The notes under the pieces were generated by a model. That model was not told the origin of the DNA. It saw only the letters and a program-made list of their open reading frames with translations, and ran no database searches. A stretch of DNA of 23,804 bases. Origin: a virus. Below, piece by piece: positions 6,610 to 21,018 of this stretch. Within the stretch, counting starts at the first letter, position 1. Each line of letters starts with the position of its first letter. The stretch is taken from positions 1 through 23,804 of IMG/VR virus record IMGVR_UViG_3300025781_000075; one strand, given 5' to 3'. A program made the translations under genes and the position numbers.

Positions 6610-8271
6610 TTATCTTGCGTATATGAGAACATTAGCAGTTGTTGCACCAAAACTGTTGTGCAGACTTTGCAGGCCAGTAATTACCACAGTGGTGTTGGCA
6701 AAGTTAGGCCAATTGATAGCAAACTGTACTCCGCCTGATGTACCCAGTCCATAATACTCGTTACTGTCAATTGTGATCAAGGGCAACAACTTGGATGGCA
6801 CCGGGAAAGTGGGTGAGTTGATTCCGGTGGTCTGAATCTTTACAAAGAACTCATTATAAGTGGCCATATAGTAATTGAGACTTTGAGTCATTGTGGCAGT
6901 GGCCGTTGATGTGGTTGCATCAATGTTGACCAAGGCTTCTACCGCAGTCCACTGTGCTGATGCTGAACCACCCGAACTGTATCCGCCCGGGATCAAATCA
7001 ATCCAGTCGTTTTGATAGCTCACATAAGCACTGCCTGCAGAACTGTCCCACCACAGTTGTCCCACCGAATTGATTGTGGGTGGTGTATCTGAAACTGTGA
7101 CCGGATTAGGTGCATAGGCAGCACCATTGGGCCAATATACACCAGTTCGGGTCGTAACTGTTTGTGTGGTAACATTGCCAATGTTGCCCGAATAGGTGGG
7201 CAAATACACTGCGATGTTGGCATTGCCAAATGTGCTGGCTCTACTGTCAACATAGGCCTTCATGGCAGTATTGGCAGTAACAATTGCGGCATTGGCAGCA
7301 GCAATATTGATGTTTGCAACAGACACATTGGCATTGGTCAAAATGATGTTGTTTTCGTTGGTACCAATTGCGTCCAAGATTGCTTCGAGGTTTCCGGTAT
7401 TGGCCTGTATGGGGACAATTTGGTCGTTAAAGTAGTTGACCACTGCGGTGTTGGCAGTGACTATTGCGGCATTGGCAGCAACCACATTGGCTGACAAACT
7501 GGTTAAAGAATCGCGTAAGGATGCAATTGCAAGATTCACAGCCAACACATTGGCATTGGTAAGATCTGATCTAGTGGCTAGAATATCAATGGCACTCAGT
7601 TGTGATGACAGGTCGCTTAGGAGGCCCACTGCATTGGCCTGCCAAGCCAGGTCCACCGAGTGAATGGCTGCGTTGGCAGCAGTTATGTTGGCTTGTAGGG
7701 CCACTACTTCGGACTGTATATAAGTGTTGCCTGCGCTCAAACCAGAAAGTTGGTTGCTGAGTGTGGCGAGTGTGCCAAATGCTCCGGACACACATCCAGT
7801 AATGGTCGTGAATTCGGTTTGGAGGGTTGATACTGCGCTGGGCAGGGGCGCCAGGGTCGTGTGCTGAGTGCCCACATTGGCATCTAGTGTGTTGAGATGG
7901 GTTACAATTGTGCCAACATTTTGTTGTAGTGCAGTGACTGTGGTTTGTACTGTGCTGACATCTACATTGCTGAGAGTGTTGATCAGCGTTTGAACATTGG
8001 CCAGGGCCGAATTTACATAAGCATTGCCGGCCAGGCTGAGACTGTTTACGTATGCTAGACTGACTGCGCCCGAAACATCATTGACTGTTAGGCTGATGTT
8101 ACCGGTGCGTCCGGCCACAGACTGTACCGGAGCGTTGACGTTTATTGTGGCGTTGCCCGAAGCGATATTGGCAAAATTGGCGTCAATGATTGCAAATGCA
8201 TCGCGGAGAGCAGTTCCGGTGCCATCGTTTGCAACATTACCTACGTAGACGTAAGAAAAAGAACTCATCAT
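6610..8271 (-). CDS. Tail fibre protein (553 aa)
   Basis: The N-terminus (YVGNVANDGTGTALRDAF, then DANFANI) is the classic 'ndGTGd.LRdAF..iN.NFa' module of T4-type fibre and baseplate-linked proteins. It is followed by PVQSVAGRTGNISLT, another common fibre motif. Residues about 90-330 are alanine- and asparagine-rich helical repeats of the same NAAIVTANTA type as in the downstream 494-aa fibre. Then comes VAVYLPTYSGNI. From about residue 385 a distinct C-terminal domain with DTPPTINSVGQLWWD and a final beta-rich 110 residues could be the tip. Two in-frame ATGs start the gene; the second (8266-8268) has the better spacing from AGGG. A late-promoter-like motif and an 8-bp inverted repeat precede it. 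It heads the whole fibre cassette. Confidence 0.85.
   Translation of the reverse strand: MMSSFSYVYVGNVANDGTGTALRDAFAIIDANFANIASGNATINVNAPVQSVAGRTGNISLTVNDVSGAVSLAYVNSLSLAGNAYVNSALANVQTLINTLSNVDVSTVQTTVTALQQNVGTIVTHLNTLDANVGTQHTTLAPLPSAVSTLQTEFTTITGCVSGAFGTLATLSNQLSGLSAGNTYIQSEVVALQANITAANAAIHSVDLAWQANAVGLLSDLSSQLSAIDILATRSDLTNANVLAVNLAIASLRDSLTSLSANVVAANAAIVTANTAVVNYFNDQIVPIQANTGNLEAILDAIGTNENNIILTNANVSVANINIAAANAAIVTANTAMKAYVDSRASTFGNANIAVYLPTYSGNIGNVTTQTVTTRTGVYWPNGAAYAPNPVTVSDTPPTINSVGQLWWDSSAGSAYVSYQNDWIDLIPGGYSSGGSASAQWTAVEALVNIDATTSTATATMTQSLNYYMATYNEFFVKIQTTGINSPTFPVPSKLLPLITIDSNEYYGLGTSGGVQFAINWPNFANTTVVITGLQSLHNSFGATTANVLIYAR
7246..7302 (-). repeat. 57-bp repeat shared between two fibre genes, copy 2
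   Basis: Partner of 5944-6000 with three mismatches in 57 positions. It encodes the NTAMKAYVDSR-type helical unit of the 553-aa fibre protein. Confidence 0.75.
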
Positions 8272-10473: not shown

Positions 10474-12279
10474 CTACTGATTCTGGGTTAAGTACGTAGT
10501 TATTGGCACATTTTGTGTCTGTGATTGACTGATCACTGTGGATGGTGCAGGGTCATTATTTAGAGTAATTCCAGCCGAGGCCAACAAATCGCTGTTGATG
10601 GTTTCGGCCACTGCGGCTCGGATGGTGTCACCATAACTGTCTTTGGTAATCAAATTGGCAAAAAATTGATAGGTTTGATACTGTGTTTTGTCGGCGGCTA
10701 TGGTAGGAAGTGACTGGGAAAATGAGGTCAGGCTATTGGGATATCCGGCCCCAAATACTGCACCAGCTCGAGATAAAAAAGCAACTTCGGTGTTAAGTCT
10801 ATTCAGCATTTGCCAATAGGCTGTTTGTGCTGCCGCCAGGCCCGGTGTGCTAGTTGGGCTTAAAGATTTTAAAGCCGCGTTCAAGTTGGCCACTGCAATG
10901 ATTACGTTGCTGATATTGCGACCACTACCGCCACCATTGATGTAGTTGTTAAGCGCCGTTTTCAGGGCTGCAATATAGCTTGTGATACCGCTTGCGGCCG
11001 CCACTGTAACAAAATTTTGATTGATAATGTTGAGTTGGGTAACATAGGGATATCCACTAGTGGCTCCAAGAAAATCAACAATGGCCGGATTCCCAAACGG
11101 TCCCGAGCCAGTTCCGGCACCGGAAATGATACTGTTGGTAATCGAGGGCGACAAAGTCGCACTGTTGGCATTGGCGGTGGTATAGGGCAATACCGGCACT
11201 TCTAGACTCTGCAACAAGGTTGCCATGGAACTCCAGGTTGAAAAGTATCCCTTGCCCAATTTACTGTGTATATAACTGCCCAAGCCGCTGAGTGTGGTAA
11301 TACCCAGCTGATTTAGTTGTGCGAGATTGGCACTGTCCACTATCTTGGTCAAATCCAGGTAGTCATTGAGTGAAACAATTTGGCTGGACGTGGTTGACAC
11401 AAATCCTGTGGTGTGGGTTATGATGTCCAAATTAGAACCAGTGATGGACTTGTATATGGCAATCACTGTGTCAGTGGAGTTTCCGGGCACCGATGTAGTT
11501 GTGGTGCTGGTGGCAAGAGTGGGTATGGCCACTGCACCAATTGGAGTGTTGGTCGGTGCGGCCTTGGATTGTAAACTTGTAGTTGTGGTGCTGGTGGGTA
11601 TGGCCTGTAAATTAGTAGTATCCAAACCGGCAGCACTGAGTTGTGTGCTAAGATCGCCGTAACTGCCAAGATTTTGATTCAAGAGATTTTGTCCAAACAC
11701 ATAGGGATCGCCCATGGTACTGATGTTGTTGACATCATACATGGTACCAAATCGGCTCACCACATTGGCCAACACCTGAGCACTGGCTCCGATACCGCCA
11801 GTGGCCAAATCTGCTGGTCCAGTGTAGCCCAGTCCGCTCTGAGCATAAGTTTTGTTCTGTAAAATATTGGCACTGGCCACTGTATCAAACGAACTCACCA
11901 TGTACGCATAGGAATTGTTGTACACATTGGCAAATCCGCTCAAGCCTGATGCAAACGGTCCAGTGACTTGATTTTGTAGTGTACCCGAAAAACTGGCTAT
12001 ATTACCGGGATACAGTGCAACCCCGCCGCTGCCGGTTGCGGTGACATTGGCTGGATAGAGATCCAGTAACCATGTGCCATACGTGACACCCTGTCCAATA
12101 TTGGCCATCACATTGGCCACACTGCTATTGCCGGATGCCAGTGCACACACATTGGCAAATGCAGCCACGGTGGATTGACTTTGAAATTTGGTTATCTGCG
12201 CCAATACTGCGGTATTTGCAGCTAGGCCATAGCCACTAGCAACGGTGCTGGTTGCCGTCAACTGTAGTGCGCTGGCCAA
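10474..12279 (-). CDS. Large virion structural protein (601 aa), function unknown
   Basis: Low-charge protein rich in A, S, T, N, L and G, without signal peptide or membrane segment. The first 150 residues are alanine-rich and helical (MASALQLTATSTVASGYGLA). A threonine/serine stretch with TSTTTTSL and TSTTTTSV repeats marks a linker at about 230-265. The middle (about 275-350) includes SLNDYLDLTKIVDSANLAQL and a GLGSYIHSKLG segment. The C-terminus ends in a long helix and a Gln/Thr-rich tail. It starts 1 nt after the PAAR gene stop, so it is probably made with the spike tip and may belong to the tail or baseplate. No enzymatic motif is visible. I cannot name a family. Confidence 0.75.
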   Translation of the reverse strand: MASALQLTATSTVASGYGLAANTAVLAQITKFQSQSTVAAFANVCALASGNSSVANVMANIGQGVTYGTWLLDLYPANVTATGSGGVALYPGNIASFSGTLQNQVTGPFASGLSGFANVYNNSYAYMVSSFDTVASANILQNKTYAQSGLGYTGPADLATGGIGASAQVLANVVSRFGTMYDVNNISTMGDPYVFGQNLLNQNLGSYGDLSTQLSAAGLDTTNLQAIPTSTTTTSLQSKAAPTNTPIGAVAIPTLATSTTTTSVPGNSTDTVIAIYKSITGSNLDIITHTTGFVSTTSSQIVSLNDYLDLTKIVDSANLAQLNQLGITTLSGLGSYIHSKLGKGYFSTWSSMATLLQSLEVPVLPYTTANANSATLSPSITNSIISGAGTGSGPFGNPAIVDFLGATSGYPYVTQLNIINQNFVTVAAASGITSYIAALKTALNNYINGGGSGRNISNVIIAVANLNAALKSLSPTSTPGLAAAQTAYWQMLNRLNTEVAFLSRAGAVFGAGYPNSLTSFSQSLPTIAADKTQYQTYQFFANLITKDSYGDTIRAAVAETINSDLLASAGITLNNDPAPSTVISQSQTQNVPITTYLTQNQ

Positions 12280-12668: not shown

Positions 12669-12962
12669 TTATACTAACTGAATTCCTGTGGTTGTTTTTA
12701 AATAATGTTTTTCTATTTCGCTTGTGGTAACAGAATGCAACATTATGTGCTCATTTTTGATTGCTATATCTTTATTTATATCGCCAGAAAACAGGCTCTG
12801 CACCAAACCCAATCCGCCCTGTGGGCCAGGAACCACAGTGCAGGGTTTGGAAATTGTAAAACCATCTGCAGTTTGCTCGACGATTTTGGCAACAACCTCG
12901 TCACCGTTTACCAGCTTGAAACTCACCACATCCCCGGAGGAATATCCTTTATTGATCAACAT
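12669..12962 (-). CDS. Small beta-rich protein, possibly Sm-like (97 aa)
   Basis: The first half (GDVVSFKLVNGDEVVAKIVEQ) has the alternating strand pattern of an Sm/Lsm-type barrel, in which a strand ending in NG is followed by DEVVAKI. A conserved-looking loop VPGPQGGLGLVQSLF follows, then a helix and the ending TTTGIQLV. I believe similar proteins occur in marine T4-type phages, but no function is known to me. It has an AAGGA Shine-Dalgarno and starts 3 nt after the glutaredoxin gene. It therefore joins the nrd genes to the PAAR gene. RNA binding is only a fold-based guess. Confidence 0.72.
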   Translation of the reverse strand: MLINKGYSSGDVVSFKLVNGDEVVAKIVEQTADGFTISKPCTVVPGPQGGLGLVQSLFSGDINKDIAIKNEHIMLHSVTTSEIEKHYLKTTTGIQLV

Positions 12963-12965
12963 ATT

Positions 12966-13190
12966 TTATCCTTGTAAATGTTTTCTTAATTCGTTGAATC
13001 CGCCCACGTGTGCGTCATCCAAAAATATCTGTGGCAGTGTTCGTGCAGTGGGCACTGCCTCCAACAACTGTTCACGTGTGTAGTCGTGATTGATATTGCG
13101 TTCTTCGTACTCGATGCCCTTGCTTTCTAACAATGCTTTGGCCTGTACACAAAAAGGGCAGGCATCCTTGCTCCATACTATTGCTTTCAT
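12966..13190 (-). CDS. grx: Glutaredoxin (74 aa)
   Basis: A small thiol-disulphide carrier that re-reduces ribonucleotide reductase. The dithiol active site CPFC (Cys11, Cys14) follows the first strand MKAIVWSKDA, and TLPQIF supplies the cis-proline. The GGFNEL segment near the end binds glutathione in the family. The start at 13190 is chosen over the longer frame to 13229 because it gives the standard N-terminus, has a GAGGA Shine-Dalgarno, and avoids a 29-nt overlap with nrdB. Ten nt separate it from the nrdB stop. The operon position directly after nrdB supports its role as electron donor for NrdA. It is short for a glutaredoxin but complete, similar to other phage versions. Confidence 0.92.
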   Translation of the reverse strand: MKAIVWSKDACPFCVQAKALLESKGIEYEERNINHDYTREQLLEAVPTARTLPQIFLDDAHVGGFNELRKHLQG

Positions 13191-13200
13191 CGTTTTCCTC

Positions 13201-14301
13201 TTATAAATTGGGTAGTGCTTCGTAGTCAAGTTGATCGCTCATGACTCCGATTACATAACTGGTTGATTCTGACTCTTGTAAGGCTGTTTGCTTCTTGCTG
13301 GTGTCAGTGTGCTTGTTGAACCACGGTATTGGTGTTGACCTTGGTGCAGGTGCTTGGTACTTGATACCGATGTCTTTTAATGCACCTAATGCGGTATAAT
13401 CAACAAAATCCTTCAAGATATTGGCGTTTAAACCTATCACAGGGCCTTTAATAAACAGGTAGTCAGCCCAGGCTTTCTCCTCACGTATCACGTCCATGTA
13501 CAGTTGATACACTTCGGCTTCACACTCGTCTCTAGCTTCGGCAAAACGGGAATCCTCTTTGATAACCTGATTGATTAGATATGCGGTCCAGGCTTTGTGT
13601 AACAATTCATCTTGCAGGATCAATGATATAATATTACCATTGCCCATAAAGATTCTGTTCTCGACCATGGCTAAACTGGTGGCAAAGCTCACCATGAAAC
13701 GGAATGCTTCTAGAGCATAACTGGCGTTGAGTGCCAACCATATGGCCTTGACATGTTCTTTTTCTGTCACCGGAAGCCCTATTTCTTTAGAACAGTTTAG
13801 TGTGTGCAAGGCATCATAATATTTGCCAACACTACTAGCCATGCTGATGATCTCTTGAGTATCGTGTATGGTGTTAAACACATCCTTGGGTACATTGTAG
13901 ATGTTGCGAATAATGTGGCTATAACTTTTACTGTGAATGTTGGTTTCAAAGAAACCCCAGTTGTACATAAGTGCTTCTACTTCGGGTAACGAACATACCG
14001 GAGTAAACACCTGTGTGGGACCACGTCCTTGCAAACTGTCTAGTGCAGTTTGACGCAACAGGTTGCTGGTAAAGATGTGTCTTACTGCTTCGCTTGCTTC
14101 TTTAAAATCGTTGCTGTCCTTTGTCAAACTAACTTCTTCAGGTTGCCAAAAGAATCCACGTGCAGTGGCATCAAAGTCAGCAATCTTTTTGTACTTGACT
14201 TCTTCAAAACGTTGTATGGTAACTGGACCGGCTGGGTCAAGAAACATCTTTCTTGACAAGTAATCGGTCTTGGTGTTTAGGTTGTATTGTGCTTGACTCA
14301 T
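13201..14301 (-). CDS. nrdB: Ribonucleotide reductase class I, small (beta) subunit (366 aa)
   Basis: Carries the di-iron/tyrosyl-radical centre that starts ribonucleotide reduction. Expected ligands can be followed: Asp88 in ALDSLQGR, Glu119 and His123 in FFETNIHSKSY, Glu198 in YALEAFRF, Glu232 and His235 in QDELLH. The likely radical Tyr127 sits in HSKSY. One oddity: Glu119 and His123 are four residues apart, whereas E. coli NrdB has three (ETIHSRSY). This may be a trait of marine phage NrdB proteins. The C-terminal tail (SYVIGVMSDQLDYEALPNL) is of the type that docks on NrdA. The ATG overlaps the aminotransferase stop by 4 nt. Confidence 0.95.
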   Translation of the reverse strand: MSQAQYNLNTKTDYLSRKMFLDPAGPVTIQRFEEVKYKKIADFDATARGFFWQPEEVSLTKDSNDFKEASEAVRHIFTSNLLRQTALDSLQGRGPTQVFTPVCSLPEVEALMYNWGFFETNIHSKSYSHIIRNIYNVPKDVFNTIHDTQEIISMASSVGKYYDALHTLNCSKEIGLPVTEKEHVKAIWLALNASYALEAFRFMVSFATSLAMVENRIFMGNGNIISLILQDELLHKAWTAYLINQVIKEDSRFAEARDECEAEVYQLYMDVIREEKAWADYLFIKGPVIGLNANILKDFVDYTALGALKDIGIKYQAPAPRSTPIPWFNKHTDTSKKQTALQESESTSYVIGVMSDQLDYEALPNL

Positions 14302-15401
14302 AGTTGTTCTAGTGCCTGTTGTAAACTTGCGACGGTTCCTGCAATGTCATTTAGTTTGTCTAGGCCAAAGAGACCAATTCTAAATGTCTTGAAGTCTGCA
14401 CGTTCACCCACCTGTAAAGGAACTCCGGCAGCAGTTTGATAGCCTAATGCTCTAAATTTAGTTGCGTTTTGCAACCCATCATCCTCGGTATAGCATACCA
14501 CTACACCAGGAGCATGATATCCAAAAGCGGCAACACTGGGAAAGCCCTTGGAGGCCAACATGTTTCTAATAGCAGTGCCCAATTCGTACTGTGCTTTTTT
14601 CAATGTGTCAAATCCCACTGCTTCAGTTTCCAGCATGGTGTCACGCAATTCTTTTAAGGCATCTGTGGGCATGGTGGTATGATAGATAAACTTGCCTTGC
14701 TCGTATGTTTCCACAATCTGCAACCACTTCTTCAAGTCCATGCTGTAACTAGTACTTGCAGTTGAATCAATAGCGGCTCTTGCTCGTGCGCCGAGTGCAA
14801 TCATGGCACAACAGGGAGTACTGCTCCAACCTTTTTGTGGTGCAGTGATTAATACATCAACTCCACACTGTTTCATGTCAACCCAGGCCGCACCTGATGC
14901 AATACAGTCCAGCACAAATAGTGCGCCCACTTCGGTACAGGCTCGTCCCACTTGGTCAAGATAGTTGTCAGGCAGGATCATGCCGGCCGATGTTTCCACA
15001 TGTGGTGCAAACACAACGGCGGGTCGATTTTGTCTAATAGCAGCCACAACTTGTGCGATGTCGGCCGGACGATACTGGGCTTGGTATTGATCAACAATTT
15101 GTTCTGCATTAACTACTGTGATATCATCAGTAATTTTTGCCATGTCAAATATCTGTGTCCAGCGATAACTGAACCATCCGTTACGGATAATCATGACTCG
15201 GGCATTGTTGGCAAATTGGCGTGCCACTGACTCCATGCCAAATGTGCCCGATCCGGGCACAATAACTGCTGATTCGGCATTGTATGCTGTTTTGATTAAT
15301 CGGCTAATATCTCGAACTACATCAACAAATTCATCGCTCATGTGATTTAGGCTTCGGTCTGTGTATACCACAGAAAATTCTTTTAGTTTGGTGTATGTCA
15401 T
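14298..15401 (-). CDS. Class V PLP-dependent aminotransferase (367 aa)
   Basis: A complete fold-type I, class V aminotransferase, of the alanine/serine-glyoxylate aminotransferase-like group. The PLP site is intact: a glycine loop VPGSGTFGME (about 48-57), APHVETSAG (132-140), Asp165 in LFVLDCIASGA, Schiff-base Lys190 in ITAPQKGWSSTP, and a late Arg341 in FKTFRIGLFG that may bind the substrate carboxylate. Length is normal for the family. It resembles proteobacterial chromosomal enzymes, so it is probably an acquired host metabolic gene. It sits between nrdA and nrdB and overlaps each by 4 nt, so its translation is coupled to both. Substrate is not predictable from the sequence; glyoxylate/pyruvate with serine, alanine or aminoethylphosphonate are possibilities. 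Confidence 0.92.
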   Translation of the reverse strand: MTYTKLKEFSVVYTDRSLNHMSDEFVDVVRDISRLIKTAYNAESAVIVPGSGTFGMESVARQFANNARVMIIRNGWFSYRWTQIFDMAKITDDITVVNAEQIVDQYQAQYRPADIAQVVAAIRQNRPAVVFAPHVETSAGMILPDNYLDQVGRACTEVGALFVLDCIASGAAWVDMKQCGVDVLITAPQKGWSSTPCCAMIALGARARAAIDSTASTSYSMDLKKWLQIVETYEQGKFIYHTTMPTDALKELRDTMLETEAVGFDTLKKAQYELGTAIRNMLASKGFPSVAAFGYHAPGVVVCYTEDDGLQNATKFRALGYQTAAGVPLQVGERADFKTFRIGLFGLDKLNDIAGTVASLQQALEQL

Positions 15402-17716
15402 AATTTACATGCCTCGCAGTCCTCTTGATCGTCCCAGTCAATGTCTTCTAGTACTGGTGCTTCTTCGGCTTCTGCTTTGGCTCCTTGTTTGTTGATCAGT
15501 GAATAATAAAAAGTCTTTAATCCCCAGGCATGTGCCTGCATTAGGTTCTTGGCAATCAAGGTAGTGGGCACTTTGCGTCCGGGAAAGTGTGCAGGATTAT
15601 AAAACGTATTTGTACTTATACTTTGATCAATGTAGGCAGCTAAAACCGCTGCCGTTTTTAAATATCCGTCACAGTCCTTTTGATCCCACATCAGTTGATA
15701 CTTGTTGCGTAGTTTGTGGTACTCGGGCACCACCTGTGTCAGCGAACCGGCCTTGCTTTCTTTTACCGAAATCAACTGCATGGGCATTTCGATACCGTTG
15801 GTGCTGTTGATCACAACACTCGAACTCTCTACTGGAGCAATGGCCATTTGTGTGGCATTACGTACTCCATAAGTTTTCATGTTGGTTCTTAAGGTTTCCC
15901 AATCCAGTTCGGGAGTGAAGTCAGCAAGCTCGTTAACACCCTTGGCACGTAATTCCCACGGAAACACACCTTGTCCATAACGTGTGTGATCTGAATCCAC
16001 ACACTTGCCACGTTCCCGGGCCAACTCAACACTGGCTTCGGTCAAGTAGTAGGCCTGATGTTCCATCCAACTTTTTACTTCAGACAAACTTTCTCGATCG
16101 CCGTATTTGAAGGATCTCTTAGCATGCCAGTAGGCAAGATTGGTGATTCCAATTCCAATGGGTCTAATTTCGTCATTGGACATTCGACTCTGGATGGAAA
16201 GGAAATCTTGGTAGTCCAGGATATTGTTAAGGCTACGATGCAGGATACGGCAAGCACGGCGCATATCCTCAGGATTGCGGAAAGCACCCCAATTGATTGA
16301 CCCCAGGGTGCAGAGCGCAATACGACCGTTAGGATCATCAAGGCGCTTAAAAGGTTTAGTAGGAAGTAATATTTCACAACAAAGGTTACTCTGATAAATG
16401 GTATGATATTCAGGATCAAACGGACCTTGACCCTGCACGTTGTCTATGAACACCAAGTAGATACGTCCAGTGTCAGTGCGCTCTTTTAGTATACCGCTCT
16501 TGAACACTTCTTCGGCAGTCATGACCTTTTTGCGTAGGTCCGTGCGCTTTTCGTAGGCCACATACAGTTCTTCAAAACGTGCAGTGTCTTGATAAAACGC
16601 TTCGTACAGGTCTGGTACTTGGTTGGGATCAAAGAATGTTATGTTTTCTTTTTGTTTGAATCGTCTCCAGAAGAAGGCTGAGAGTACGACTCCGTAGTCC
16701 ATAAATCTAACTCGCGTTTCTTCAGTTCCTTGGTTATTTTTAAGAACAATAAGATCATCAAACTGATGATGCCAAATAGGGTAAAAAACAGTAGCACTTG
16801 CATTACGAATACCTCCTTGCGAACATGAACGTAAATCACCAAACCACTTTTTCAAGAACGGAATCATGCCGGTGTGCATGATCTCACCACCACGGATCGG
16901 ACTACCAAGTGGGCGTAGTCTTCCAATTTCTAAGCCAATACCGGCACGTTTGCTGGCATACTTGGCCATCATTTCGCCTGAAGCAAAAATACTGTCTAGG
17001 TCGTCGTCACTGCGGATAAGAACACAACTACTAAACTGTTTAGTAGGTGTACCAAGACCGGCAAGAACAGGAGTAGCCAAAGTAAACAAACCATCACTGG
17101 CCGCATTGTAGTACTCTTTGATGAATCGCATTCTCGCAGTATTCGGTTCTTCTCTGTGAAATACTGTTGCGGCTGCAACCATATACCGGATTTGTGGTGT
17201 TTCGTAAATTTCCTTTGTGGCTCGATTACGTACTAGATACTTTTCAATAAGTTGCTCGATGGCGGCATAACTGTAGGCTTCGTCCTTGACATGATCCAAC
17301 ATGTCGTTCATGCGATTCCAGTCATCCTCGGTATACCACTCCAACAGTTCAGGAGTGTACAAGCCCACTTCAACATTGCGTTTCACAACTGTATAGAGGT
17401 GAGGAACTTCGTATGAACCGTATACGTCCTTACGCAACATACTTAGACGTTGCTTGCCGGCCACATATTGGTAATTGGTGTGTCCCACATCGGGATTGTG
17501 TTCGACGTCGATTAGATCTACGATTGCTCGTAGTGTTATTTCGTCAATTTCTCTTGTAGTAATGCCATCATAAAAGTGCGGTTGACTTTTAATCTCGATC
17601 ATGCTCTGACTTACATCTGCTATCCCACTACATATTTTTGCTATCTGCGCTTGCCATTTTTCTACTGCGAGTGGTTCTTTACGTCCACTTCTTTTTGTGA
17701 CTTGAATTGTTGACAT
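15398..17716 (-). CDS. nrdA: Ribonucleotide reductase class I, large (alpha) subunit (772 aa)
   Basis: Catalytic subunit that reduces NDPs to dNDPs. Residues 1-100 form an N-terminal ATP-cone (ITKR-type start VTKRSGRKEPL, then TNYQYVAGKQRL), the allosteric activity site. Catalytic residues are in place: Cys231 in FSSCVLI, Asn444, Cys446 and Glu448 in SNLCCEILLPT, Cys469 in ALCTLGSINW, and the radical-path tyrosines 737-738 in KTFYYS. The mobile C-terminal redox pair is Cys767/Cys770 in CEACKL, the likely partner of the glutaredoxin downstream. Length matches E. coli NrdA (761). The start has a GAGGA Shine-Dalgarno and lies 7 nt after a small unknown gene. The stop overlaps the aminotransferase start. 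Confidence 0.96.
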   Translation of the reverse strand: MSTIQVTKRSGRKEPLAVEKWQAQIAKICSGIADVSQSMIEIKSQPHFYDGITTREIDEITLRAIVDLIDVEHNPDVGHTNYQYVAGKQRLSMLRKDVYGSYEVPHLYTVVKRNVEVGLYTPELLEWYTEDDWNRMNDMLDHVKDEAYSYAAIEQLIEKYLVRNRATKEIYETPQIRYMVAAATVFHREEPNTARMRFIKEYYNAASDGLFTLATPVLAGLGTPTKQFSSCVLIRSDDDLDSIFASGEMMAKYASKRAGIGLEIGRLRPLGSPIRGGEIMHTGMIPFLKKWFGDLRSCSQGGIRNASATVFYPIWHHQFDDLIVLKNNQGTEETRVRFMDYGVVLSAFFWRRFKQKENITFFDPNQVPDLYEAFYQDTARFEELYVAYEKRTDLRKKVMTAEEVFKSGILKERTDTGRIYLVFIDNVQGQGPFDPEYHTIYQSNLCCEILLPTKPFKRLDDPNGRIALCTLGSINWGAFRNPEDMRRACRILHRSLNNILDYQDFLSIQSRMSNDEIRPIGIGITNLAYWHAKRSFKYGDRESLSEVKSWMEHQAYYLTEASVELARERGKCVDSDHTRYGQGVFPWELRAKGVNELADFTPELDWETLRTNMKTYGVRNATQMAIAPVESSSVVINSTNGIEMPMQLISVKESKAGSLTQVVPEYHKLRNKYQLMWDQKDCDGYLKTAAVLAAYIDQSISTNTFYNPAHFPGRKVPTTLIAKNLMQAHAWGLKTFYYSLINKQGAKAEAEEAPVLEDIDWDDQEDCEACKL

Positions 17717-18777: not shown

Positions 18778-19486
18778 TTGACAAATAGTATAGCTCCACA
18801 CGTTTCATCCACTCGTTGTGCCAGTAAGCAAACTCGTCGCCTTCAACAACAAATTCCAGGTATTCTGGCGTCGAAAACGTGCCATCTAGTAGTTGTTTTG
18901 GTTGTACACACATCAAAATTACACCGGTATTGATCTCAGTGCCGTGTGTGTCATTGTGTGCAGCTGCGTAAGCTGCCAGTTGAATAAAGTAGTCGCCAAT
19001 GTGCTCGCGCTTTTTGACTTTGTTGCTTTGCTTGAAATCCAGGATAGCAGGAGCACCCTTCCATACACCCACACAGTCTGTGGTACCAGCATATAACCCA
19101 CTATAATAAACTGGAACTTCGCTACCCCAGTATTCAGTAACATTGGGTTGCAGTCCTTCCAGTATCACTTGCGAAGCCATGAACCACGACGGATGTGCAT
19201 AGGGGTTTGTGGGCAAGGGTTTCATGTCATCACTGAGAATATAACTCTCAAGATAACTGTGCATACGGGTACCACGATTAGCAGCTTCAGTTGTGATCTG
19301 TTGTGCACGTTCGTGTCCAATGGCATCACGCCACTTTTGTAATGCTTCGCGTTTTTCAGCAGGAGCAGTACGATCTAGTATGGTTGTTACGCTAGGCACC
19401 CGGCTGCCATCAGGTAAACAGTAGTGTCGTTTGCCATCAACAGTGGTTCTGCTGATGGCAGTGTAATTGTATGGTGATTTTATCAT
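18773..19486 (-). CDS. PD-(D/E)XK exonuclease, RecB/MGME1-like (237 aa)
   Basis: A nuclease of the PD-(D/E)XK superfamily. The order of motifs is typical: SVTTILDRT (32-40), helix NRGTRMHSYLE with His76, Asp137 in GTTDCVGVW, Asp150 and Lys152 in AILDFKQS, and the downstream QLAAYAAA helix with Gln169. This resembles the mitochondrial MGME1-like and phage 'exonuclease' groups, which trim single-stranded ends in recombination and replication. Only three scattered cysteines are seen, so it lacks the four-cysteine Fe-S cluster of Cas4/AddB-type relatives. That weakens any direct link to the neighbouring iscA. The start overlaps the iscA stop by 4 nt. Confidence 0.87.
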   Translation of the reverse strand: MIKSPYNYTAISRTTVDGKRHYCLPDGSRVPSVTTILDRTAPAEKREALQKWRDAIGHERAQQITTEAANRGTRMHSYLESYILSDDMKPLPTNPYAHPSWFMASQVILEGLQPNVTEYWGSEVPVYYSGLYAGTTDCVGVWKGAPAILDFKQSNKVKKREHIGDYFIQLAAYAAAHNDTHGTEINTGVILMCVQPKQLLDGTFSTPEYLEFVVEGDEFAYWHNEWMKRVELYYLSN

Positions 19487-19809
19487 CGAACTCTAAAACT
19501 TTCTCCGCAACCGCAACGGTCACGTTCATTGGGATTTGTGAATTGAAAACCTTCGTTGAGGCCTTCGCGTACATAGTCTACTGTCATGCCCTTCAAATAG
19601 ACATCGCTCTTTTTGTCTACAAATATGGCAAAGTCTGGTTGTGCATAGTTGATGGTGTCGCCACTGTCTATGTAGGCATCTACATATTCTAACACATAAG
19701 CCAGTCCCGAGCAACCGGTCGTCCTAACACCGATTCGGATTCCAATGCCACCGCGCTTGGCCAAAAGTCGTACAATTTTGTTTCTGGCAGCTTCAGTGAC
19801 TGTGATCAT
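19483..19809 (-). CDS. iscA: Iron-sulphur cluster assembly protein IscA (108 aa)
   Basis: An A-type Fe-S carrier/iron donor of the HesB family. The three conserved cysteines are present: Cys33 in TTGCSGLAYVLEYVD, and Cys99 and Cys101 in RCGCGESF. The phrase VREGLNEGFQFTNPN is almost that of E. coli IscA (VKEGLNEGFKFTNPN), and the length equals that of E. coli (107). The similarity to IscA is stronger than to ErpA or SufA. Its ATG overlaps the stop of the glycosyltransferase-like gene by 4 nt and its own stop overlaps the exonuclease start. It belongs to an operon with iscU and probably supports cluster transfer during infection. A bacterial origin is likely. Confidence 0.93.
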   Translation of the reverse strand: MITVTEAARNKIVRLLAKRGGIGIRIGVRTTGCSGLAYVLEYVDAYIDSGDTINYAQPDFAIFVDKKSDVYLKGMTVDYVREGLNEGFQFTNPNERDRCGCGESFRVR

Positions 19810-20503: not shown

Positions 20504-20887
20504 TTAGTTGATATTGTGTTTTGCTTTGTAGTCGGCTACTGCTGCCCGGATGGCATCTTCGGCCAGGATCGAACAGTGAATCTTGACTGGAGGGAGAGCA
20601 AGCTCTTCCGCAATCTCGCTATTTGTAATCGTTGCCGCGGCGTCAAGTGTTTTACCTTTAACCCACTCGGTAATGAGACTGCTTGACGCAATTGCGGAGC
20701 CGCAACCATAAGTCTTGAATCTTGCATCGGTGATGATTCCATTTTCGACCTTGATCTGTAGTTTCATGACATCACCACAAGCAGGTGCCCCCACCATGCC
20801 GGTGCCCACGCCTGCTTCGTCACGAGCAAACGAACCCACATTGCGTGGGTTCTCGTAGTGGTCAATAACTTTGTCGGAATAGGCCAT
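20504..20887 (-). CDS. iscU: Iron-sulphur cluster scaffold IscU (127 aa)
   Basis: The scaffold on which [2Fe-2S] clusters are built. All cluster ligands are intact: Cys37 with Asp39 in GAPACGDVMKLQIKV, Cys62 in TYGCGSAIASSS and Cys105 in KIHCSILAEDA. The LPPVK chaperone-recognition motif (just before KIHCS) is present, so host HscA/HscB could act on it. The protein is close to proteobacterial IscU along its whole length (E. coli 128 aa). The ATG at 20887 is chosen because MAYSDKVIDHYENPRNVGSF is the family N-terminus; the TTG at 20917 would add 10 unlike residues. No clear Shine-Dalgarno precedes the ATG. iscS, hscA, hscB and fdx are not seen nearby, so host partners are needed. Confidence 0.95.
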   Translation of the reverse strand: MAYSDKVIDHYENPRNVGSFARDEAGVGTGMVGAPACGDVMKLQIKVENGIITDARFKTYGCGSAIASSSLITEWVKGKTLDAAATITNSEIAEELALPPVKIHCSILAEDAIRAAVADYKAKHNIN

Positions 20888-20913
20888 TAGCGTATGTCTG
20901 TGGTGTGTTTGTG

Positions 20914-21018
20914 TCAAATACTCTTTTTAAGTATCTTGTACCAAATTTTCTTTTCGCGTTTGACATCGTGTCTAAAGATGGCAACGTACAATTTTCGGCG
21001 TAGTTTACGTAGTTTCAT
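20914..21018 (-). CDS. Very small basic protein (34 aa)
   Basis: A 34-codon frame from ATG 21016-21018 to TGA 20914-20916 fills the gap between the secreted-protein gene and iscU. The product starts MKLRKLRRKLYVAIFRHD and ends in KKIWYKILKKSI, strongly basic with regular hydrophobics, like an amphipathic helix. The fit in the gap (1 nt after the upstream stop) and its codon-like composition support translation. Function unknown; nucleic-acid or membrane binding is possible from composition. Confidence 0.55.
   Translation of the reverse strand: MKLRKLRRKLYVAIFRHDVKREKKIWYKILKKSI

Follow-up and report, generated by a model that had tools for sequence, protein, structure and literature searches.

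An AGXT-like aminotransferase carried in an exchangeable gene slot between nrdA and nrdB of phage ribonucleotide reductase operons

Introduction

What is an aminotransferase doing inside a phage operon for ribonucleotide reductase (RNR)? The question is posed by virus record IMGVR_UViG_3300025781_000075, all 23,804 nt of which were analysed here (the window, a 23.8 kb viral contig whose minus strand bears tail, endolysin, head-like and RNR genes), and in which the gene for a class V aminotransferase, hereafter AT, separates nrdA from nrdB. We find that the nrdA/nrdB gap is a cargo slot with exchangeable genes, and that AT is a rare but selectively maintained occupant of it. As to its benefit, we propose, with slightly less than even confidence in the reading as a whole, that an active AT carried as slot cargo would convert glyoxylate to glycine and so feed nucleotide precursors upstream of RNR.

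Genes inserted between the class Ia nrdA and nrdB of phage are familiar from the nrdA-mobE-nrdB arrangement of T4 and from further phage RNR genes invaded by homing endonucleases (PMC3653736, PMC2988022); the intervening genes described in the passages of PMC3653736 consulted here either encode homing endonucleases or have no known function. In contrast to T4-type insertions, the slot described here includes metabolic enzymes (AT, isocitrate lyase (ICL), class II aldolase and superoxide dismutase (SOD)), some with stop-start joints. While genes between phage nrdA and nrdB, like phage aceA, are known in outline, an aminotransferase or ICL in a phage RNR operon appears to be new: we found no report of either in a literature search outside which many subscription papers lay.

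AT is joined to nrdA and nrdB and recurs in viral RNR operons

An earlier note on this DNA had described nrdA, the aminotransferase gene and nrdB as overlapping by 4 nt at both joints, with glutaredoxin after them, and these coordinates hold:

15398..17716, minus strand: nrdA, class Ia RNR large subunit, 772 aa (Pfam PF02867, Ribonuc_red_lgC, 3.9e-109; NCBIfam NF006578, 831.6 against a cut-off of 813 bits; PHROG 84)
15398..15401, minus strand: ATGA overlap of the nrdA stop and the AT start (from the sequence)
14298..15401, minus strand: AT, AGXT-like class V aminotransferase, pyridoxal phosphate (PLP) fold type I, 367 aa (Pfam PF00266; 3ke3 by sequence and fold; no match in PHROGs)
14298..14301, minus strand: ATGA overlap of the AT stop and the nrdB start (from the sequence)
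13201..14301, minus strand: nrdB, class Ia RNR small subunit, 366 aa (Pfam PF00268, Ribonuc_red_sm, 6.6e-41; PHROG 86, 3e-109)
12966..13190, minus strand: glutaredoxin, grx (Pfam PF00462, 2.5e-16; start read from the sequence)
12669..12962, minus strand: PHROG 527 protein following glutaredoxin (PHROG match; border of the control slot used below)

By Pfam, nrdA, AT, nrdB and glutaredoxin are all genuine genes. The 3' end of nrdA in the window reads ...AAATTATGA, and given the ATGA overlaps nrdA, AT and nrdB would be expected to be translated together; the most likely glutaredoxin start is the ATG at 13190, with GAGG upstream, about 10 nt past the nrdB stop and without overlap. The GC content of AT (0.456) matches that of nrdA (0.444) and nrdB (0.425), so that composition gives no sign of a recent arrival.

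The layout is neither due to chance nor peculiar to this contig. When IMG/VR was scanned for AT by protein, by profile and by two DNA patterns, 22 viral contigs other than the window proved to carry it. In 21 of these the gene is part of an RNR operon, most commonly in the order nrdA-AT-nrdB-grx; the nrdA-AT-nrdB order, whose presence in other phages the earlier note had raised as a question, thus recurs. Because several of these contigs are near-duplicates (L002 of the window, L030 of L031, L012 of L028), the independent lineages are fewer. Exact ATGA joints on both sides of AT are found in some relatives only, others having gaps of 10-30 nt or extra genes. The remaining placements are nrdB-X-AT-grx in L024, AT-grx in L439 (truncated by the contig end), AT adjoining nrdB in the short locus L015, and AT without a detected RNR gene within 11.5 kb in L029. 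ThyX is encoded by one of the carriers, a viral contig of 317 kb on which genes resembling those of GroEL and SOD were also recognised by eye. No close AT homologue was found in 50,697 deposited phage records, the only matches being two distant proteins annotated as iscS (26% identity). In L028, a partial nrdA duplicate of 70 codons (7419-7628) lies just upstream of the full nrdA.

The nrdA/nrdB gap is a cargo slot

How tightly AT is bound to this position was read from the 80 closest NrdB relatives in IMG/VR (84-91% identity), 68 of which have both nrdA and nrdB readable. Taking genes within 60 nt of each other as adjacent and gaps above 150 nt as holding cargo, we found nrdA and nrdB adjacent in 28/68 relatives, 18 of them with the exact ATGA overlap, and separated by cargo in the other 40; AT itself is present in one. 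The earlier note's picture of an aminotransferase locked in the operon does not survive these counts; rather, because 40 relatives insert genes at this point and 28 do not, the gap is a cargo slot with exchangeable genes. Cargo also occupies the nrdB/grx gap in 28/78 relatives and the gap between grx and the PHROG 527 gene, our control slot, in 0/78 (Fisher p against the control 8e-18 for nrdA/nrdB and 4e-10 for nrdB/grx, values that are indicative only as the phages are related). In a second RNR lineage, with NrdB about 41-44% identical to that of the window, 18/78 junctions hold cargo, three of them ICL and none AT.

The cargo seen in the slot comprises class II aldolase, Fe/Mn SOD, IscU and IscA together, a SpoT-like HD domain, 2OG-Fe(II) oxygenase, Tim44-like, PGDYG and methyltransferase proteins, a D-amino-acid dehydrogenase-like protein, a class IV aminotransferase, HNH endonucleases and ICL, as well as lipoproteins and small open reading frames (ORFs), and peroxiredoxin is carried in the nrdB/grx gap. 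With such unrelated genes in the slot, and with AT at another place in the operon in L024 and L439 and apart from any detected RNR gene in L029, a fixed functional unit of AT and RNR finds no support. The class II aldolase is the commonest metabolic cargo among close relatives (L348-L425; L032:9122-9763; L085:1707-2366); this aldolase/adducin-family protein is closest to MtnB/FucA-type models, yet falls under their equivalog cut-offs, and its relatives are encoded on at least 599 viral stretches. RNR genes lie near 70/80 of the closest viral copies of the aldolase and within the flank of 67/80 of those of ICL, the latter mostly in the order nrdA-ICL-nrdB, both fractions being biased upward by queries taken from RNR-slot copies with the 80 nearest kept.

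These data are also open to an account in which the gap is a tolerant insertion hot spot, which homing endonucleases and ATGA stop-start joints would keep open, and AT a useful moron unrelated to deoxynucleotide (dNTP) supply that acts, for example, in alanine/pyruvate or serine balance. The metabolic genes indeed share the slot with lipoproteins, methyltransferase-like proteins, an HD hydrolase, PGDYG proteins and small ORFs; L021, L025, L033, L034, L117 and L271 have HNH or GIY-like endonucleases within it or next to it; and homing endonucleases between phage nrdA and nrdB were already known (PMC3653736). Such an account leaves unexplained, however, why ICL and aldolase gather at RNR, and why the named cargo appears to lean towards metabolic and redox functions (ICL, aldolase, aminotransferases, SOD, peroxiredoxin, IscU/IscA). 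We regard it as a serious rival, possible though somewhat doubtful as the whole explanation, and compatible with the glycine-supply proposal, as a hot spot would give the site and selection would keep what helps.

Several further observations concern the same region. Genes for IscU and an IscA-like protein occupy the nrdA/nrdB slot of other phages (L115:1141-1840; L290, L292, L317), while in the window they are found ahead of nrdA, 2-3 kb upstream on the same strand (IscU at 20504-20917, IscA-like at 19483-19809), which suggests that genes supplying iron-sulfur clusters or iron accompany RNR. The slot of one phage holds a SpoT-like HD-domain protein, a possible ppGpp hydrolase (L153:1449-1946), and nrdA is interrupted by endonuclease-like ORFs at L033:2746-6228 and L284:2214-3879.

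AT is an intact AGXT-like aminotransferase

AT passes the Pfam Aminotran_5 model (27.8 bits against a cut-off of 21.5, E 1.6e-6). Its closest solved structure is Psychrobacter arcticus 3ke3 (E 1e-131 by sequence), annotated as a putative serine-pyruvate aminotransferase, followed by the Sulfolobus serine:pyruvate aminotransferase and AGXT enzymes. An AlphaFold (AF2) model built from 13 sequences (mean pLDDT 75) likewise finds 3ke3 as its best fold match in the PDB (TM 0.84, E 4.6e-41), ahead of Sulfolobus 3zrr/3zrq and human AGT, with query TM of about 0.68-0.84 across the best matches, and thus predicts the overall fold of AGXT enzymes. Three codons mark the active site:

14907..14909, minus strand: D165, pyridine-nitrogen aspartate, aligned with human AGT D183, invariant
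14832..14834, minus strand: K190, PLP Schiff-base lysine, aligned with human AGT K209, unchanged across the 20 viral and 40 bacterial copies
14379..14381, minus strand: R341, substrate carboxylate-binding arginine, aligned with human AGT R360, invariant

The earlier note had read Lys190 and Asp165 as intact, and so they are in 20/20 viral copies. Together with the inter-subunit Y240 and T243 and with R341, they show no variation across the 20 viral and 40 bacterial sequences. The 20 viral ATs have no differences at the positions matching human AGT S81, S158, D183, Q208, K209, Y260, T263 and R360, and at most of these positions the 40 bacterial ones have none either; R341 implies a substrate with a carboxylate. 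The same residues have equivalents in human AGXT, yeast Agx1 and Sulfolobus 3zrp, which share the class V, fold type I architecture and yet are only 19-27% identical to AT, and human AGT differs further in having H83 and W108 where AT has T53 and F77. Much closer are 3ke3 and standalone homologues from Burkholderiales and Polynucleobacter, with about 48-67% identity and the same length, fold, and PLP and carboxylate residues. By Pfam cut-off, residues and fold, AT belongs to the AGXT-like subgroup of the class V aminotransferases, and its residues and the selection described below make it very probably active as an aminotransferase.

The reaction is harder to assign from family models, since the NCBIfam equivalogs all score AT far under their cut-offs and so leave its subfamily without an assigned reaction. 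PhnW, 2-aminoethylphosphonate transaminase, is rejected on these grounds (TIGR03301, 86.6 against 360.8 bits; TIGR02326, 83.4 against 400.8), as is BhcA, L-aspartate:glyoxylate aminotransferase (NF045640, 76.3 against 650), and the pyridoxamine-pyruvate transaminase equivalog fares likewise.

The proximity of IscU and IscA-like genes, 2-3 kb upstream on the same strand, raises the thought that AT could be a cysteine desulfurase-like sulfur donor for them, helping to assemble Fe-S or diiron cofactors; IscS falls in the superfamily of the class V aminotransferases, and the sole matches of AT in isolated phages carry the name iscS. AT nevertheless has the QK motif of AGXT enzymes and the R341 carboxylate arginine, its best PDB fold matches are all AGXT-like, and its 17 NCBIfam matches are to PhnW, BhcA and other aminotransferase models, with no cysteine desulfurase (IscS/NifS) model among them. 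Family models and motifs thus rule against the desulfurase reading, which we consider extremely improbable.

A closer competitor is serine:pyruvate (or alanine) transamination as the main reaction, which would feed hydroxypyruvate and gluconeogenesis or alanine pools and not glycine. The annotation of 3ke3 points this way, as does the next-best solved relative with a stated specificity, the Sulfolobus serine:pyruvate aminotransferase 3zrp-3zrr, and AGXT-family enzymes often accept both glyoxylate and pyruvate. At about 26% identity, however, the Sulfolobus enzyme is too distant for its substrate to be transferred, and the association with ICL described below points towards glyoxylate, so that we hold this assignment to be rather unlikely. 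For glyoxylate to glycine as the main reaction, AGXT kinship and the ICL association bring us to an even judgement.

Selection on AT and its bacterial relatives

The viral ATs form a single clade (support 99/90) whose nearest relatives are Polynucleobacter copies, a sister placement with moderate support (88/68). Among phage ATs dN/dS is 0.055-0.10 (pairs with estimable dS, many pairs being saturated), and AT is maintained under purifying selection. The earlier note had considered that AT would look like a passenger if related phages lacked it at an otherwise identical junction and carried disrupted PLP residues elsewhere: the first is what we see and the second is not, and with all 20 viral copies intact and dN/dS this low we reject a decaying passenger.

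Across 105 non-independent pairs, AT identity is unrelated to that of the flanking NrdB (rho -0.05). The window and L003 share 91% identity in AT and 44% in NrdB, while for the window and L030 the values are 66% and 87%. AT therefore moves separately and yet keeps to the RNR operon, and it has either entered the slot of differing RNR operons repeatedly or stayed while RNR was swapped.

A single acquisition from a Polynucleobacter-like Burkholderiales bacterium best explains the tree, and the phages, judged from the AT tree only, probably infect freshwater bacteria (Burkholderiales). Bacterial homologues occur in 34/300 genomes of the Polynucleobacter order and in 23/369 of its class. The 40 bacterial loci inspected are standalone genes without RNR linkage, and apart from local synteny within Polynucleobacter their neighbours are not conserved. 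The phage clade differs, almost all of its members being in RNR operons. With viral neighbours, an apparent bacterial origin, a predicted metabolic function and purifying selection, AT fits the description of a phage auxiliary metabolic gene.

A possible link to glyoxylate through slot-borne isocitrate lyase

The slot ICL has 401 aa, scores 678.9 bits against an NCBIfam cut-off of 562 and carries the catalytic KKCGH motif. Full-length copies lie between nrdA and nrdB, or between nrdB and grx, at L186:3787-4992, L188:3787-4992, L194:1004-2209 and about 60 further loci (L269-L347). ICL makes glyoxylate, an AGXT substrate.

Two gene orders bring the enzymes together. L008 (IMGVR_UViG_3300032316_000656) reads ICL 3' end, 18-codon aldolase remnant, AT, nrdB; it starts with the final 36 codons of ICL (72% identical, E 5e-12), which is cut off there by the contig end. 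L295 reads nrdA-ICL-class IV aminotransferase-nrdB, with the class IV enzyme at 2101-2973. Two unrelated aminotransferases thus adjoin a glyoxylate-producing enzyme in the slot, in one instance each. The aldolase scar, 18 codons of the start of a class II aldolase directly before AT (L008:1-248), is evidence that the slot has lost a gene. At L341:6206-7381, the slot neighbour of ICL is a D-amino-acid dehydrogenase-like protein.

Phage aceA and aceBA are known from marine viromes as auxiliary metabolic genes, which are reported to form a glyoxylate shunt together with malate synthase (PMC5332604, PMC4053976). They resemble the present case in that a phage-borne ICL feeds the glyoxylate node and differ in that ICL here lies in the RNR slot and malate synthase was not found in 20 larger AT or ICL phage records (15 with ICL; controls positive, records maybe incomplete). 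Glyoxylate from the phage ICL must therefore go to host malate synthase or elsewhere.

A possible supply of glycine upstream of RNR

We therefore propose a model in which AT, a PLP aminotransferase of the alanine/serine:glyoxylate(pyruvate) type kept by selection, would aminate glyoxylate to glycine, with alanine, serine or another donor. The nrdA/nrdB slot would let many related phages co-express such extra genes with RNR, and the ICL in the slot of other phages could be an alternative or complementary route to more glyoxylate. Glycine would enter purine rings and, via the host glycine-cleavage system and serine hydroxymethyltransferase (SHMT), yield one-carbon units for purine and thymidylate, a supply step upstream of the neighbouring RNR. 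The earlier note's suggestion of a glyoxylate/glycine role gains circumstantial support from the slot ICL, and the retention of AT in the operon even in an RNR lineage only 44% identical speaks for the model as well; the substrate, the direction of the reaction, the benefit and the link to dNTPs are what we infer. That AT pays through purine and one-carbon nucleotide supply we advance tentatively, from its place beside RNR and textbook metabolism. A broader version, in which a widespread group of phages uses the gap as a dedicated exchangeable metabolic slot and selects glyoxylate-node enzymes for it (ICL, AT and at times a different aminotransferase), so that glycine and one-carbon precursors keep step with RNR, appears unlikely to us.

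Several points weigh against the model. A search for substrate or activity data found none for the AT subfamily, whose closest PDB entry is annotated as a "putative" serine-pyruvate aminotransferase; the standalone bacterial homologues provide no function from host context; and the slot also takes genes without an obvious dNTP link, so that position is no proof of one. Joint carriage of AT and ICL was seen in 0/18 ICL records and 0/12 AT records, L008 alone having both, with ICL cut by the contig end, and SHMT was not found in the 20 larger phage records, ThyX being present in one (the 317 kb contig). As AT and ICL are both rare (AT 1/68 and 0/78, ICL 3/78), lack of joint carriage is expected by chance; with L008 having both, we dropped mutual exclusion as evidence. 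For a role in DNA hypermodification, no supporting neighbour was seen by eye, no dedicated test having been made.

Were the glycine model true, phages would use the RNR operon itself to adjust the metabolism of precursors as far back as amino acids, and auxiliary metabolism would reach back from dNTP making to the atoms for purines and thymidylate; nrdA/nrdB gap sequences across phages would then amount to a list of what limits their DNA synthesis. Even without a glycine role, the recurrent stop-start cargo slot offers a natural system for how morons join operons without breaking them.

Elsewhere in the window, a gene at 10474-12279, after a PAAR-like gene, encodes a 601-aa protein that has no PHROG match and whose homologues in relatives range down to 24% identity.

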